Below are positions 46,019-53,195 of a stretch of DNA of 64,000 nucleotides, piece by piece (positions within the stretch are counted from its first letter, which is position 1; every line of letters starts with the position of its first letter). The DNA comes from Gracilimonas sediminicola (GTDB lineage: Bacteria; Bacteroidota; Rhodothermia; Balneolales; Balneolaceae), in NCBI RefSeq assembly GCF_024320785.1, contig NZ_JANDBC010000001.1:1990001-2054000 (forward strand), read 5' to 3'. The notes beneath the pieces are model-generated. The model was not told the DNA's origin. It made no database searches and saw only the letters and a list, made by a program, of their open reading frames with translations. The position numbers and the translations under genes are program-made.

Positions 46019-47230
46019 CTAAAAAGTATGAACCAATAACCCTGAACGGAGCTTAGGCTCAAACCAGGTGGACTTTGGTGGCATAAGCTGTCCCGCATCA
46101 GAAACATCCAGCAGTTCTTCAATGCTGGTTGGGTACAGGCTGATGCCAAGCGAAGCCTCTCCGTTATCCACTAAATTTTCCAGCTCATTGGTGCCTCTGA
46201 TGCCGCCAACGAAATCTATGTTGGGATCGGTTCGCTGATCTTTAACATTAAGAATAGGAGTAAGAACCTGGTTCTGCAGTAATGAGATGTCAAGGTTGGA
46301 AGCAGGGTCGGTTTTCTCGGAAGGCTTAAGGGTAATGCCATACCAGTTGTCATTTACATAGAAAGAAACCATTCCTTTTTTAGCAGGAACCGGTTTAGCT
46401 TTTTTCTGAACCGTGAATTTCTCCTCCAGCTGTTTCAGGAAGTTATCAGGAATGGAAAACACAATGCGGTTATAGGCCAGTATTTCCATTTGATCCATCG
46501 GAAAAAGCACCGCAGGGAAAAAATTATATTCCTCAGTCCCCTCATGTTCGGGATTTTGTGAAGCTTGCTCTTTGGCTGCTCTCGCGGCACTTGCACAGCG
46601 GTGATGGCCGTCTGCCACATATAACCTGGCAATCTTTTGAAACTCTGAAACCGGGGTATCTGAAGCCTCAACTTTCCAAATGGTATGTTGAATGCCGTCT
46701 TCAGTTGTCAGGTCATAAACAGGATCATTCTGATCCATATGATTATCCATAAAATGGGTGACAGAGCCACTATCACGGAATGTGAGCATGACGGGTTCAG
46801 CATGGGCTTGCTGGGTAAGGATGTGTTTGGTGCGGTCGTCTTCTTTGTCAGGTCGGGTGAGTTCATGCTTCAGGATTACGTCATTGTTGTAATCGTCAAC
46901 GCTCACACACCCAAATATTCCGGTTTGAGAACGGCCGTTCATAATCAGCCGGTAAATATAGATGGCGTGCTTATCTTCCTGAATAAAAGCATCAGATTGT
47001 AGCAGGGAATGAAGGTTTTCCCGGCCTTTCTCATATACCTTGGCATCATAAACCGAGGTTTTGGCCGGAAGGTCAATTTCAGGCCGAATGACATTTAAGA
47101 AACTATTCGGTTTTCCTTTGGCAAGCTGTTTTGCTTCGCTGGTATTGATTACATCATAAGGAACACAGGCTACTTCTTCTGCGAACTCCGGGTGGGGTCT
47201 CCATGCCTTAAAAGGCTTAATAACGGCCAT
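46019..47230 (-). CDS. DUF1015 family protein
   Basis: A 403-residue cytoplasmic protein of the DUF1015 family. It opens MAVIKPFKAWRPHPEFAEEVACVPYDVI and contains the family core FGCVSVDDYN, KHELTRPDKEDDRTKH, LYVADGHHRCASAARAAKEQ and PAVLFPMDQMEILAYNRIV. The His-rich VADGHHR centre suggests a metal or nucleotide site. The gene is upstream of serC, so the protein may act in serine or phosphate metabolism, but no activity is established that I know of. Confidence 0.9.
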   Translation of the reverse strand: MAVIKPFKAWRPHPEFAEEVACVPYDVINTSEAKQLAKGKPNSFLNVIRPEIDLPAKTSVYDAKVYEKGRENLHSLLQSDAFIQEDKHAIYIYRLIMNGRSQTGIFGCVSVDDYNNDVILKHELTRPDKEDDRTKHILTQQAHAEPVMLTFRDSGSVTHFMDNHMDQNDPVYDLTTEDGIQHTIWKVEASDTPVSEFQKIARLYVADGHHRCASAARAAKEQASQNPEHEGTEEYNFFPAVLFPMDQMEILAYNRIVFSIPDNFLKQLEEKFTVQKKAKPVPAKKGMVSFYVNDNWYGITLKPSEKTDPASNLDISLLQNQVLTPILNVKDQRTDPNIDFVGGIRGTNELENLVDNGEASLGISLYPTSIEELLDVSDAGQLMPPKSTWFEPKLRSGLLVHTF

Positions 47231-48099: not shown

Positions 48100-48135
48100 A
48101 AAAAGGTGCAACCCATTGGCTACACCTTATTTTTT
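48097..48135. terminator. Two-way terminator between NUDIX and TonB-1
   Basis: AAGGTG at 48103-48108 pairs with CACCTT at 48123-48128, with more partial pairing inside and A- and T-runs at each side. It can serve both convergent genes. Confidence 0.7.
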
Positions 48136-48157: not shown

Positions 48158-48811
48158 TCAATTTTCAAGACGGAAATTGATAGATAGTGCGTACTGTACA
48201 CGAACCGGCCGACCACGCTGCATACCGGGAGTAAATTCGGCTTTCTTAACAGCTTTGAGAGCCTCTTCATCACAGCCGCCACCAATTCCGCGCACCACTT
48301 GTGCGTTTTCAACATTACCCTGTTCATTCACAATAAACTGAACGGTAACGCGGCCTTCAATTCCGGCTTTTCGAGCCATTTCGGGATATTTTACACTTCC
48401 CTGAAGTTTGGCCATGCCTCCTTTTAGTTCCGGCATCTGTTCCACTACTACAAAGAAGTCTTCTTCTTCCTCTTCTTCAGGCGGGGGTGGTGGAAGATCC
48501 ATGGGCGCATCCATATCCAGCTCGGCGTCCATGTCAATCATCTCATCCTCAATAATTTCATCGTTAGGGACTTCAACCGGAACTGGTGGCCGGGGTGGTG
48601 GAGGCGGAGTTTCCACTTGCTTGGTTTGAATGACTTCCTCCATCTCAACAACTTCCTGCTCATCCAGTGCAATTTCTTTAGGTGGCTCAGTTTCTATATT
48701 AACCTTTACCACAGCGATCATGAAAAGCAGGGCAAATATGGTTCCCACTTCCAGGATGATGGTGTAGGATTTCCTGAGATTTACCTTTGGTGACTTTCTC
48801 TCGTTTCTCAT
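48158..48811 (-). CDS. TonB family energy transducer, copy 1
   Basis: A 217-residue TonB-like protein: one membrane helix near residues 18-36, a rigid proline/acidic spacer (PPPPPRPPVPVEVPNDE, then MDLPPPPPEEEEEEDFF) and a C-terminal TonB domain (QMPELKGGMAKLQGSVKYPEMAR ... FTPGMQRGRPVRVQYALSINFRLEN). It should pass proton-motive force from ExbBD to outer-membrane transporters; no exbB or exbD is nearby. By hand count it differs from copy 2 in about 19 of 217 residues, most of them before residue 46. Confidence 0.9.
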   Translation of the reverse strand: MRNERKSPKVNLRKSYTIILEVGTIFALLFMIAVVKVNIETEPPKEIALDEQEVVEMEEVIQTKQVETPPPPPRPPVPVEVPNDEIIEDEMIDMDAELDMDAPMDLPPPPPEEEEEEDFFVVVEQMPELKGGMAKLQGSVKYPEMARKAGIEGRVTVQFIVNEQGNVENAQVVRGIGGGCDEEALKAVKKAEFTPGMQRGRPVRVQYALSINFRLEN

Positions 48812-48993
48812 GGTTACTCCCTGTAATTAAATAATTCGGAACTTGAGTATCCGTTAAACTCATTAGTATCAACAAAACAACGACTTATATCGTTTTGTTA
48901 ACTAACTAATAAAGATTTTATTGGATTGCAAATCCGGATTGTGGCAATACCGAGGCCGTAATAAGGAGGAGGCGAAAGCAAAGTAAACGGCAT

Positions 48994-49023
48994 AAAAAAG
49001 GTGTGACCGAAAAGCCACACCTT
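48994..49023 (-). terminator. Terminator for TonB copy 2
   Basis: AAGGTGTG at 48998-49005 pairs with CACACCTT at 49016-49023; read on the minus strand a T-run follows. Its stem is close to the one after TonB copy 1. Confidence 0.7.
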
Positions 49024-49049
49024 AAAATAACTCAACAAATGTATTTGAA

Positions 49050-49703
49050 TTAGTTTTCCAATCGGAAGTTGATAGACAAGGCATACTGTACACGTACAGG
49101 TCGTCCTCGCTGCATACCCGGAGTAAAGCTCGCTTTTTGAACGGCTTTCAGGGCTTCTTCATCACATCCACCGCCAATTCCACGAACAACCTGGGCGTTC
49201 TCAACTTTACCCTGCTCATTCACAATAAACTGAACGGTAACGCGGCCTTCAATACCGGCGCGACGTGCCATTTCAGGATATTTTACACTACCCTGAAGTT
49301 TAGCCATACCGCCTTTCAATTCCGGCATCTGCTCTACAACCACAAAGAAATCCTCTTCTTCCTCTTCTTCAGGGGGAGGAGGAGGTAAATCCATCGGGGC
49401 GTCCATATCAAGTTCGGCATCAAGGTCAATCATTTCGTCCTCAATAATTTCATCATTGGGAACTTCGACCGGGACCGGTGGACGAGGTGGTGGTGGAGGG
49501 GTTTCAATTTGTTTGGTCTGGATTACTTCCTCCATCTCAACAACTTCCTGCTCATCAAGAGCAATTGCTTTCGGGGGCTCAGTTTCGATCGTAACCTTAA
49601 CGGCTGTGATCATAAAAAGCAGAGCAATAATCAAACCTGCCTCCAGATAGACAGTGTAAGATCTTTTCAGATCTGCTTTAGGTGATTTTCTTTCATTTCT
49701 CAT
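49050..49703 (-). CDS. TonB family energy transducer, copy 2
   Basis: A 217-residue protein nearly identical to copy 1 from residue 46 onward, including the whole proline spacer and TonB domain; the N-terminal helix region differs (residues about 10-45). It has the same length and layout. The near identity in the C-terminal part means either a recent duplication or gene conversion. Terminators behind both copies are also alike. A single-gene transcript is likely. Confidence 0.9.
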   Translation of the reverse strand: MRNERKSPKADLKRSYTVYLEAGLIIALLFMITAVKVTIETEPPKAIALDEQEVVEMEEVIQTKQIETPPPPPRPPVPVEVPNDEIIEDEMIDLDAELDMDAPMDLPPPPPEEEEEEDFFVVVEQMPELKGGMAKLQGSVKYPEMARRAGIEGRVTVQFIVNEQGKVENAQVVRGIGGGCDEEALKAVQKASFTPGMQRGRPVRVQYALSINFRLEN

Positions 49704-49828
49704 AATTCAAATACAATGTTTATCTGTTGTAACGATAAGTTGAAAAGAACGTGATTTTATACATACTCTGCAAGTGGCAGAACAGTAATTTAACTCTTTA
49801 AACAAATTTTTAGTGTGCAGGCTTTTTA

Positions 49829-50491
49829 TCAGACATCAAGTAGTATAAACTGAACGGTCTCCTTAATTCGGAATGAGGCTATTCTTCCGGCTTTTTTTCC
49901 GGGTTTGTAGCGTTGAATTTGAATGGCCTTCAATACGGCTTTATCACACCCGCCGCCAATTCCCCGCACGATAACCGGGTTGTGAACTCGGCCATGTTCA
50001 TCAACATCAAATTCCACTTCCACAATGCCCTGAATTCCCATACGACGAGCCATCACCGGATATTCAATGCTTTGTCTGAACGCATCCTCACCACCAATCA
50101 TCACCGGGAGTTGCTCAATATCTTTAAGAAGATCATGATTTACATCTACAAAAATTTGTCCCGGCAACGGAGGAACCATAAGCCTGTCAGTAGTATTGAA
50201 CTCATTGATTTCTATGGGGGGTGGATCGATGGGTTCATCATCGGGGATTTTCACGGGTATGGTTGGGACCGGAGGTGGTTTCATTATGGTCCTTGTTTCT
50301 GAAACGGACGGGGGGAGAATGAGTGCCGTTTCTTCACTTTTCACATAAGAGATTTGATTTGCCCCTTGTTCCGGAAGCTGAATCTTGGTTGCCACAATCA
50401 TTAGCACAAGCGCAATAATGATCCCGCCCTCAATCACCAGAGGGTAACACAACTTTAAATCAGCTGACGGAACTTTTCGTAGCATAAGCAC
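49829..50491 (-). CDS. TonB family energy transducer, copy 3
   Basis: A 220-residue paralogue: membrane helix LVIEGGIIIALVLMIVATKI, shorter spacer (PPPVPTIPVKIPDDEPIDPPPIE) and TonB domain with GIQGIVEVEFDVDEHGRVHNPVIVRGIGGGCDKAVLKAIQ. The C terminus ends KETVQFILLDV rather than NFRLEN. It is clearly diverged from copies 1 and 2, so it probably serves different partners. Confidence 0.88.
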   Translation of the reverse strand: MLMLRKVPSADLKLCYPLVIEGGIIIALVLMIVATKIQLPEQGANQISYVKSEETALILPPSVSETRTIMKPPPVPTIPVKIPDDEPIDPPPIEINEFNTTDRLMVPPLPGQIFVDVNHDLLKDIEQLPVMIGGEDAFRQSIEYPVMARRMGIQGIVEVEFDVDEHGRVHNPVIVRGIGGGCDKAVLKAIQIQRYKPGKKAGRIASFRIKETVQFILLDV

Positions 50492-50578
50492 CTGTTCTAA
50501 AATGCTATTGTAAAATCAATACACCTTTTAAAATAGTAAAATTGACGAAAAAAGCACTCGTTATTACCCCAATAGCTA

Positions 50579-51220
50579 CTATTTCAGCCTGAAGTGAACC
50601 AGTTGCTTCATGCGTACCTTCACCAGCTTACCGTTTTGAATACCCGGAGTATAGTTTTGCAGCTTGATGGCTTCCAGAACTTCTTCATCACAACCGGCAC
50701 CGATGCCCCGGATAATTTCAGGGTCTTCTACTTCTCCCTTCTCATTCACAATAAAGCGGACTTCAACAGTTCCCTCAATCCCATTTCTTTTTGCGAGTTC
50801 AGGGTAGGTGATGTCGCTGTACAGGGCTTTGATTCCACCTTTCATTTTGGGCATAAACTGGACCTGCTCAAGAATCTCCGGCTCCTCATCGCCGGCTTCT
50901 TCCGGAGGTAAGGATAGTGCGGCTCCGGTATCGCCGAACTCAGGAAACTCAATATCGGGGGCTTCAATTGGCTCATCATTTGGTACAGCAGCGGGGATGC
51001 GAGCCAAAGGTGGCGCAGCAGGTGGTTTTTCCTGTTTTGTGATTGGAGAAAGTACGATAGGAGGCTCATCCTTGATAATGAAGTCAGAGCCGTCGGTTCC
51101 TGAAACCGGTAAATGAAATTTAATGGCCCCAATGAAAATCAGAAGTGCTGCGATTAATCCCAACTCGCATAGCAGGGTGTAGTTTTTGCGAAGATCGAAA
51201 GTGGATTTTGAAGAGCGCAT
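50579..51220 (-). CDS. TonB family energy transducer, copy 4
   Basis: A 213-residue paralogue: membrane helix LLCELGLIAALLIFIGAIKF, spacer APPLARIPAAVPNDEPIEAPDI, then TonB domain with GIEGTVEVRFIVNEKGEVEDPEIIRGIGAGCDEEVLEAIKLQNYTPGIQNG. Most upstream and first transcribed of the four if they are one unit, though gaps of 87-240 bases between the copies argue for separate transcripts. Confidence 0.88.
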   Translation of the reverse strand: MRSSKSTFDLRKNYTLLCELGLIAALLIFIGAIKFHLPVSGTDGSDFIIKDEPPIVLSPITKQEKPPAAPPLARIPAAVPNDEPIEAPDIEFPEFGDTGAALSLPPEEAGDEEPEILEQVQFMPKMKGGIKALYSDITYPELAKRNGIEGTVEVRFIVNEKGEVEDPEIIRGIGAGCDEEVLEAIKLQNYTPGIQNGKLVKVRMKQLVHFRLK

Positions 51221-51284
51221 TTTTCTATGGATTAGTTTAAAAGTTACATCAATTAACTAATCTGTAAAGGCACTTGTAATCACA

Positions 51285-51695: not shown

Positions 51696-53195
51696 TTAGA
51701 TAATATCAATGGGTGCTAAAGAACCGGAGTTCTCCACAAAATATTGTTGTGCTTTCTGGAAGCCGTCCAATAATCCGTAAAAACAAGCCAGCTCAGATGA
51801 TGAATATTTCAGCCAATAAGCCCCTACTTTTCCGGCCAGCACGTCTCCGAATCCGGCTCGGGAAAAGATACGGGTTTCGTATCCTGTTAAATACGCATCT
51901 CCGGTTTCTGTTCCAACAATGGATGGCATTCCCTTACTCAATAGGGTAATTTTTTCTTCTCTTGCTTTTTCTTTAGTGAGGTTGAGCTGGTCAAAATCAT
52001 CGTTTACTTCCTGATTAAACAGCGTTTTTAACTCCCCGGGATGAGGTGTTAAAATCCAATTTGAACCCTCAGGTCGTTTTCGATTTTCCATTTTAGAAAG
52101 AGCAAACAAAGCATCGGCATCTATGAGTACATCACCTTCAAAATTCCGGAGTATGCTCTGGGTGAACCGGATGGTTTCCTGCTGCCTTCCCAGTCCCGGA
52201 CCAATTAAAACTTTTCCGGGCTTTTCGGCGATGATGTCCAGCACTTGTTCAACATGCTCTTCCTTGAAGTACACATCATCACGATCTCCTACCGGTTTCT
52301 TGATGATCTGTACCAGCTGCTTCTCATAAATTTCGAGTAATCCTTTTGGGGTGATCAGGACCACAGCTCCGAGTCCTGCCGACCAGACACTTTTTGCAGC
52401 AAGAATTCCGGCTCCGGTCAACCCTTCCGACCCGGCTATGATATAAAGTACGCCGCCATCATATTTGTGCTTCTGTCTTTTTGGGGATGGGGAAGCTGCT
52501 TCGACCCAGCTTCTGTCAATTAATGCGGCAGTAGGTTTTTTAAACTTGTTGGGGAAGGAAAGTTCACACAGAATAACTTCTCCGGACGTATCAAAGCCCT
52601 GGTTCAGATAAAAACCGGTTTTTAAGGCACCGAAGCTCAGCGTGAAATCAGCCTGAACCGCAGTTCCAAGAATGAGACCCGAATCAGCATGCAATCCGGT
52701 GGGGACATCCAAAGCAAAAACCGGGACTTCCTGTGTATTGATCCATGATATGGCATCGGAGTAAGGGGCGCGGACGTCTGAGTTCAGTCCCGTTCCTAAC
52801 ATGCCATCAACGATAAAGTCGAATGCGCTCGGGTTGAAGTCTTCCCAATCCAGCAGCTCGATGTCTTCATCAAGCTTTTGGAGCAGCCCAAGGTTTTCCA
52901 GGGTATCAGGGCTCAGGTCACCGGTTCCGGATAAAAAACAAATCGTAATTTTAAATCCCTGTTGAGAGAGGAGCCGGGCTATGACCAGCGCATCTCCGGC
53001 ATTATTCCCTTTTCCGCAAAAGAAAACCCCATGTGAGCCTGAAGGGAGCTGGGACTGAATAAAATCAGCTGCCCGTGTTCCGGCAATTTCCATCAGGGTA
53101 AAACCATCAATGCCAAACTCCGAGATGGTCTTTTCATCCATAAACCGGGATTGCTCAGCCGAGCACAAATAATATGAATGAGGAACTAAATCCAT
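51696..53195 (-). CDS. nnr: Bifunctional NAD(P)HX epimerase/dehydratase
   Basis: A 499-residue fusion. The N-terminal YjeF_N half (residues about 1-215, FFCGKGNNAGDALVIARLL and VFALDVPTGLHADSG) epimerises NAD(P)HX; the C-terminal ADP-dependent dehydratase half (residues about 225-499) has GGVLYIIAGSEGLTGAGILAA, GPGLGRQQ, TPHPGELKTLF and AGFGDVLAGKVGAY. The two repair hydrated NAD(P)H. In the last motif Phe replaces the more usual Thr or Ser before GD. It is followed by VanZ at 3 bases. Confidence 0.93.
   Translation of the reverse strand: MDLVPHSYYLCSAEQSRFMDEKTISEFGIDGFTLMEIAGTRAADFIQSQLPSGSHGVFFCGKGNNAGDALVIARLLSQQGFKITICFLSGTGDLSPDTLENLGLLQKLDEDIELLDWEDFNPSAFDFIVDGMLGTGLNSDVRAPYSDAISWINTQEVPVFALDVPTGLHADSGLILGTAVQADFTLSFGALKTGFYLNQGFDTSGEVILCELSFPNKFKKPTAALIDRSWVEAASPSPKRQKHKYDGGVLYIIAGSEGLTGAGILAAKSVWSAGLGAVVLITPKGLLEIYEKQLVQIIKKPVGDRDDVYFKEEHVEQVLDIIAEKPGKVLIGPGLGRQQETIRFTQSILRNFEGDVLIDADALFALSKMENRKRPEGSNWILTPHPGELKTLFNQEVNDDFDQLNLTKEKAREEKITLLSKGMPSIVGTETGDAYLTGYETRIFSRAGFGDVLAGKVGAYWLKYSSSELACFYGLLDGFQKAQQYFVENSGSLAPIDII

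Follow-up and report, generated by a model that had tools for sequence, protein, structure and literature searches.

Among described systems, the closest to the genes reported here are TonB-ExbBD of Escherichia coli, the TonB paralogues of Bacteroides and the HasB/TonB pair of Serratia marcescens. According to PMC11658791, Bacteroides fragilis has six TonB paralogues, only one of them, TonB3, being responsible for the listed substrates, and Bacteroides combine several TonBs with many more transporters than energisers; the same source describes HasB as a TonB paralogue that works with ExbB-ExbD and is specific for heme uptake. TonB itself is the protein that transfers energy to importers of nutrients in the outer membrane. 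Here, four TonB genes, termed c1 to c4, were analysed in a 64,000-nucleotide stretch (the window; positions 1,990,001 to 2,054,000 of contig NZ_JANDBC010000001.1) of the 3.57-Mb genome of Gracilimonas sediminicola. The likeness to Bacteroides, compared by paralogue number only, lies in the presence of several TonBs beside many more transporters; however, the four copies in the window form one tandem array at a conserved chromosomal slot. As in E. coli TonB, a short hydrophobic anchor at the N-terminus of each of the four proteins leads into a proline-rich linker and a PF03544 C-terminal domain (CTD), as assigned by eye from the sequences and their alignment. Whereas HasB is specific for heme uptake, c1 retains the transporter-binding domain of c2 and differs from it in the anchor. 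Overall, it is reasonably probable that the locus arose by tandem TonB expansion at a fixed slot, with c1 being a duplicate of c2 whose anchor changed rapidly and then remained constant.

The array consists of four consecutive open reading frames (ORFs) on the minus strand, namely c1 (48158..48811, 217 aa), c2 (49050..49703, 217 aa), c3 (49829..50491, 220 aa) and c4 (50579..51220, 213 aa), all with open frames, and it is flanked by a NUDIX gene and a VanZ-like gene, the latter adjoining c4. All four, in the order c1 to c4, score above the Pfam TonB_C (PF03544) cut-off of 24.6 bits (87.7, 88.3, 63.2 and 70.3 bits) and above the NCBIfam TIGR01352 cut-off of 27.1 (63.5, 66.3, 42.9 and 48.6), and c2 has sequence matches among TonB CTDs of known structure (best 6i97, E 4e-7). 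The original prediction of four consecutive TonB-type genes on one strand was therefore correct. Private residues mark c1 as the extra copy with a changed anchor, agreement with outgroup residues marks c2 as the conserved copy of the slot, and c3 and c4 are divergent TonBs. As listed, c3 begins at a GTG, with an alternative ATG start at codon 3 (window 50485).

Between the proteins of c1 and c2, 19 of 217 residues are different, 12 of these before residue 46 and one at 46, in line with the approximate number and the concentration that the original prediction had given from a hand count. Its description of the pair as nearly identical holds for the proteins but not for the genes, which differ at 130 nucleotides. 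The two CTDs are identical at 94 of 98 positions. After position 46, c1 and c2 agree at 165 of 171 residues, while c2 agrees at 166 of 171 with the TonB of a one-copy relative (G004; the genome carrying the window is G000, and its relatives bear other G numbers) and at 165 of 171 with the slot-2 copy of G003. The synonymous divergence (pS) of c1 and c2 is 0.69 over the whole gene, 0.73 over codons 1-45 and 0.68 over codons 46-217, which is near saturation. Synonymous codons differ at 90 of the 188 conserved residues, compared with 109-114 expected under full randomisation of codons; as the observed number does not exceed this random expectation, selection for DNA divergence was not retained as an explanation.

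Orthologous copies from different genomes also group together. Three congeneric genomes carry four copies (G000, G005 and G007), and their c1 genes form one clade in the family tree (100/100), as do the genomes themselves in a tree of eight flanking proteins (100/100). Informative sites, counted on aligned codons, support the orthologues at 94 of 95 positions for G000/G007, with none supporting the paralogues and one other; the corresponding counts for orthologue, paralogue and third pattern are 38, 13 and 9 for G000/G005 and 44, 9 and 11 for G007/G005. Near-saturated pS, the separate c1 clade and the 94:0 site count contradict the recent duplication of c1 and c2 that had been proposed. Because synonymous sites are near saturation and orthologues group together, the c1/c2 pair is old, and the likeness of its linker and CTD is kept mainly by purifying selection.

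The original prediction had also held that selection or gene conversion keeps the two CTDs alike while the anchor diverges. Selection stands; gene conversion as the main cause is not supported, and it largely fails on the very test that the prediction had named, since synonymous divergence is near saturation in both parts of the gene and the low values expected over a homogenised part were not found in codons 46-217. Large-scale conversion was thereby discounted as the main cause of the likeness, and gene conversion at c1/c2 looks minor and at most patchy. In G005, c1 and c2 share a 44-nt identical run at about codons 51-66, whose codon run was reached in 0 of 5000 shuffles; in the comparison with G000, five neighbouring informative sites within it favour grouping by genome (p 0.011), but with G007 their number is no more than three (p 0.12). 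The window pair carries a 38-nt identical run at codons 150-163 (p 0.007), and no comparable run was found in the G007 pair (p 0.16). Sites that group within genomes are clustered in G002/G003 (p 0.021), G010/G016 (p 0.007) and G016/G020 (p 0.024) but not in G010/G020 (p 0.85), G000/G002 (p 0.89) or G000/G003 (p 0.48), all p-values being uncorrected for the number of genome sets.

The changes that separate the two proteins lie mostly in the anchor of c1. The three c1 proteins share eleven fixed residues that none of ten c2-type proteins has; eight of the eleven are at positions invariant in those ten, and nine fall within residues 1-46 compared with two in the 171 residues that follow (9/46 vs 2/171; Fisher p 1.7e-5). 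Against six outgroups, the ratios of c1-unique to c2-unique sites in residues 1-46 were 13:0, 11:1, 12:0, 11:1, 11:0 and 8:2; the relative-rate tests of this part, made without loci L111, L113 and L114, gave p 0.0002-0.006 with five outgroups and p 0.11 with the sixth (G002). Outside residues 1-46, the asymmetry between c1 and c2 was significant with none of the six, and c2 agrees with the outgroup residues. These data indicate that c1 is the derived copy and that the anchor change occurred on c1, not on c2. The c1 anchors of G000 and G005 are nonetheless identical at 44 of 46 residues, although the c1 genes have a pS of 0.79; together, the skew and this later constancy show that the c1 anchor changed quickly and then stayed fixed.

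Orthologues with similar CTD divergence were used to gauge this change, with the anchor taken as residues 5-46 and an orthologue set of 28 rows and 378 pairs. The set omits all copies of G010, G016, G020, G019, G022, G011, G034 and G037, the slot-1 copies of G000, G007, G005, G002 and G003, second loci and c3/c4-type rows. The anchor divergence of c1/c2 was reached by 1 of 25 such pairs for G000, 0 of 44 for G007 and 0 of 17 for G005. Acceleration of the anchor was not upheld as a rule for duplicated TonBs in general, since it is clear in only 4 of 18 tandem pairs, that is, those for which fewer than 10% of similar-CTD orthologue pairs reach the anchor divergence (the three c1/c2 pairs and G020, 0/39); the other 14 range from 2/13 (G003) to 39/39. 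Within the anchor, T17, E21 and L28 are unchanged between c1 and c2. PMC12215075 gives Ser-x3-His-x6-Leu for the SHLS motif of the E. coli anchor, where the window TonB has T17-x3-E21-x6-L28, and by this spacing the three residues may correspond to the E. coli Ser-His-Leu. Residues 47-65 behind the anchor are identical in c1 and c2, and the putative D-box, the strand by which TonB binds ExbD, is placed here by position only, after PMC10907165.

The setting of the array was compared in 40 regions from relatives, fetched by their match to c2; the named loci nearest to c2 are from Gracilimonas and other Balneolaceae. In the slot context, the TonB genes are flanked by NUDIX and DUF1844 genes at one end and by proS together with VanZ and/or naxD at the opposite end; this context was present in 35 of the 40 and absent from 5. 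Including the window, 36 slots were thus available, 34 from the same family (all 33 family relatives among the matches listed, plus the window) and two from other families of the order. Sixteen hold one TonB, 13 two, three three and four four; with only c1-c4 used for comparison, an ORF was counted if it was 80 aa or longer and had a blastp hit to them (E up to 1e-6). As the regions were chosen by their match to c2, a c2-like gene is present by construction, but copy number is not. Ten genomes are congeneric, and besides the three with four copies they include two with three, two with two and three with one; the fourth four-copy slot belongs to another genus (G019). Taken together, these data demonstrate that the slot, whose conserved copy is c2, is a recurrent site of TonB expansion, within an ordinary gene family of a well-described kind. 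Tandem TonB pairs, defined as adjacent TonB matches on contigs other than the slot contig, also occur in relatives (among the matches listed, G002:C1, G013:C1, G018:C47, G021:C2, G031:C2 and G033:C26), but these comprise two copies, compared with four in the window.

The family tree was built without loci L104, L111, L113 and L114; L083, a second G008 locus outside the slot, was retained as G008b, long branches call for caution, and the root serves for drawing only. In this tree, c3 and c4 belong to a 16-row group (100/99), together with second copies from six further genomes, that stands apart from the 52-row c2-type group, with a c3 clade of five rows (100/100) and a c4 clade of five rows (99/97), which agrees with the prediction that c3 and c4 are older than c1 and c2. 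Genus-level trees of the whole gene join c1 to c2 (88.7/89 for DNA, 82.7/77 for protein). The most likely origin of c1 is a duplication in the common ancestor of the three four-copy congeners, a date that is moderately supported.

Several observations weigh against duplication of c2 followed by a burst of change in the c1 anchor. The family tree leaves the c1 genes, the c2 genes and G004 as an open fork, and trees of the N-terminal part (N-part) place c1 with the slot-1 gene of G002 (77/82 for DNA, 86.5/89 for protein). The excess anchor divergence amounts to one event in three related genomes, with 14 of the 18 tandem pairs lacking a clear excess, and the c1 anchor changes are not significantly clustered on one helix face (p 0.13). 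On the side of the motor, the names ExbB and TolQ used below rest on gene order, because both proteins best match the NCBI tolQ model and fall below its cut-off. Placement of c1 with the G002 gene would be expected under concerted evolution, in which a slot-1/slot-2 pair older than the genus was partly homogenised, c2 having overwritten the linker and C-terminal part of its neighbour in the common ancestor of the three four-copy congeners and left the old anchor. This scenario, in which the duplication is old and the gene outside the anchor was converted later, is not the reading we favour, and we regard it as unlikely. The short conversion-like tracts in G005 and G000 agree with it, as do the orthologue to paralogue sites of G000/G002, which are 9:7 in the first ~46-49 codons and 8:19 in the rest; however, the two parts do not differ significantly in this ratio (Fisher p 0.11 for G002, 0.24 for G003), and the N-part does not reject c1 with c2 in the approximately unbiased (AU) test (p 0.25 for DNA, 0.36 for protein). 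No site of the 95 groups by genome in G000/G007, although conversion in one of these genomes alone would not create such a site. The upstream region of c1 cannot be aligned with those of the slot-1 genes of G002 and G003 (p 0.21 and 0.53), but this weighs little because the G002 and G003 regions are mutually unalignable too (p 0.10). Direct orthology of c1 to these slot-1 genes was put to the AU test and not retained, the outcome varying by part. In the C-terminal part, DNA rejected c1 with both slot-1 genes (p 0.04) but not c1 with that of G002 alone (p 0.12), while protein rejected c1 with G002 alone (p 4e-5) but not with both (p 0.09). For the whole gene, c1 with both and c1 with G002 alone gave p 0.058 and 0.054 for DNA and 0.050 and 0.023 for protein.

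The remaining alternatives concern what the copies do rather than how they arose. That each TonB copy serves its own set of TonB-dependent transporters, as specialised energisers, was the function originally proposed, and it finds a precedent in HasB. The CTDs of c3 and c4 are only 43% (42/98) and 48% (47/97) identical to that of c2, so that other TonB-box preferences are possible for these two; however, c1 and c2 have nearly the same CTD, and Plug-domain counts do not follow copy number in the ten congeners (23, 27 and 25 matches with four copies, 52 and 23 with three, 30 and 26 with two, and 23, 26 and 16 with one, the last being G009, which is 83% complete). MotA_ExbB matches number 3, 3 and 3, then 3 and 5, 2 and 2, and 2, 4 and 2 in the same order, and no link between TonB copy number and motor or transporter counts was seen in this small sample of ten. 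Specialised energisers are unproven because copy number follows neither count, and as a general account they seem improbable; different transporters for c1 and c2 through their CTDs are, in particular, unlikely. A difference in regulation or motor coupling is likelier for this pair than one in transporter choice. A narrower idea, that c1 is specialised at the motor end, with its transporter-gripping domain kept and its inner-membrane anchor refitted, is tentative and somewhat doubtful; if true, one cell would hold two TonBs with the same targets and different ExbBD coupling or deployment. Dosage or redundancy only, with the extra copies as drifting duplicates lacking a distinct role, would suit a copy number that varies from 1 to 4, but it is quite improbable given four open frames, strong purifying selection on c1 (nonsynonymous divergence, pN, of 0.035 against the pS of 0.79 in G000/G005) and an anchor constant in its new state.

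The absence of ExbB and ExbD beside the TonB genes had been part of the original prediction, and this is true of the locus but not of the genome. No ExbB was found in the window, the three MotA_ExbB matches of the genome lying elsewhere, and the nearest of the four ExbD-family matches, which scores weakly at 24.2 bits, is located roughly 2.5 kb beyond the end of the window. Elsewhere, the genome has an ExbB-ExbD-ExbD cluster (L116), a TolQ-TolR-like cluster (L115) with a TolA/TonB-like gene behind it, and a MotA-like protein, so that, from Pfam matches and gene order, it holds two ExbB/TolQ-type genes and one MotA-like gene. As the extra TonBs come without extra motors or transporters in the ten congeners, they most likely share one ExbBD. 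Three short proteins of 135, 143 and 149 aa combine a signal-like N-terminus (by eye) with a TonB CTD (L121 3660-4067, L122 3248-3679 and L123 2765-3214). A BlaR1-like membrane protein also carries a TonB CTD (L120 2191-3990; C1:895690-897489 of the same genome), and over the matched stretch it shares 79% identity with residues 112-216 of c2.

Under the preferred reading of duplication and anchor change, c2 would be the conserved TonB of a fixed chromosomal slot (NUDIX - tonB array - VanZ/naxD/proS), and c3 and c4 would derive from an older second TonB lineage at that slot. A tandem duplication of c2, probably with its terminator, would have produced c1 in the common ancestor of the three four-copy congeners, once this had split from the nearest one-copy relative, G004. 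The new copy would then have acquired a different upstream region, and its inner-membrane anchor would have changed in a burst and been held constant thereafter, while the linker and transporter-binding domain remained under purifying selection. All four TonBs may use the one ExbB-ExbD-ExbD motor encoded elsewhere, and possibly also the TolQR-like one; c1 and c2 would pull the same transporters with different expression or a different anchor-motor fit, and c3 and c4 may serve others. Since c1 and c2 have nearly the same linker and CTD but differ in anchor and upstream region, they form a natural pair in which the anchor is singled out, and they would make it possible to examine whether TonB paralogues are distinguished by their coupling to the motor or only by the timing of their production.

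A consensus scan found terminator-like hairpins on the minus strand behind c2 (48998..49023) and c1 (48103..48128), with related stems of 11 pairs each, as had been noticed at the outset. The terminator was probably within the duplicated unit, because a similar hairpin stands behind the TonB copy of G004. Upstream of c2, a conserved block (49743..49794, minus strand) has cores common to all 8 congeneric upstream regions aligned, G007 and G009 being left out of the ten, and it is probably the promoter region of c2. The block upstream of c1 (48871..48934, minus strand) is alignable among the three congeneric four-copy genomes; it does not align with the c2 upstream DNA (p 0.74, with the first 75 nt behind c2 set aside). 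The region held fewer matches to a sigma-70 promoter (3) than shuffled sequences did (mean 6.9). Synonymous divergence of c2 is the lowest of 12 genes compared (0.088 vs G007, 0.489 vs G005), as expected for a well-expressed gene.

The stretch between the VanZ-like gene and c4 (window 51221-51284) contains an inverted repeat of 8 bp, GATTAGTT/AACTAATC, recognised by eye, and similar arms are present in G007 and G005. In G002 (L076), about 1.65 kb that resemble an insertion element by eye separate the slot-1 TonB from the NUDIX gene. Compared with G007, naxD (51696-53195), DUF1015 (46019-47230) and c2 (49050-49703) have a synonymous divergence of 0.09-0.12 and nine other genes one of 0.20-0.34; this mosaic pattern may stem from recombination between strains.

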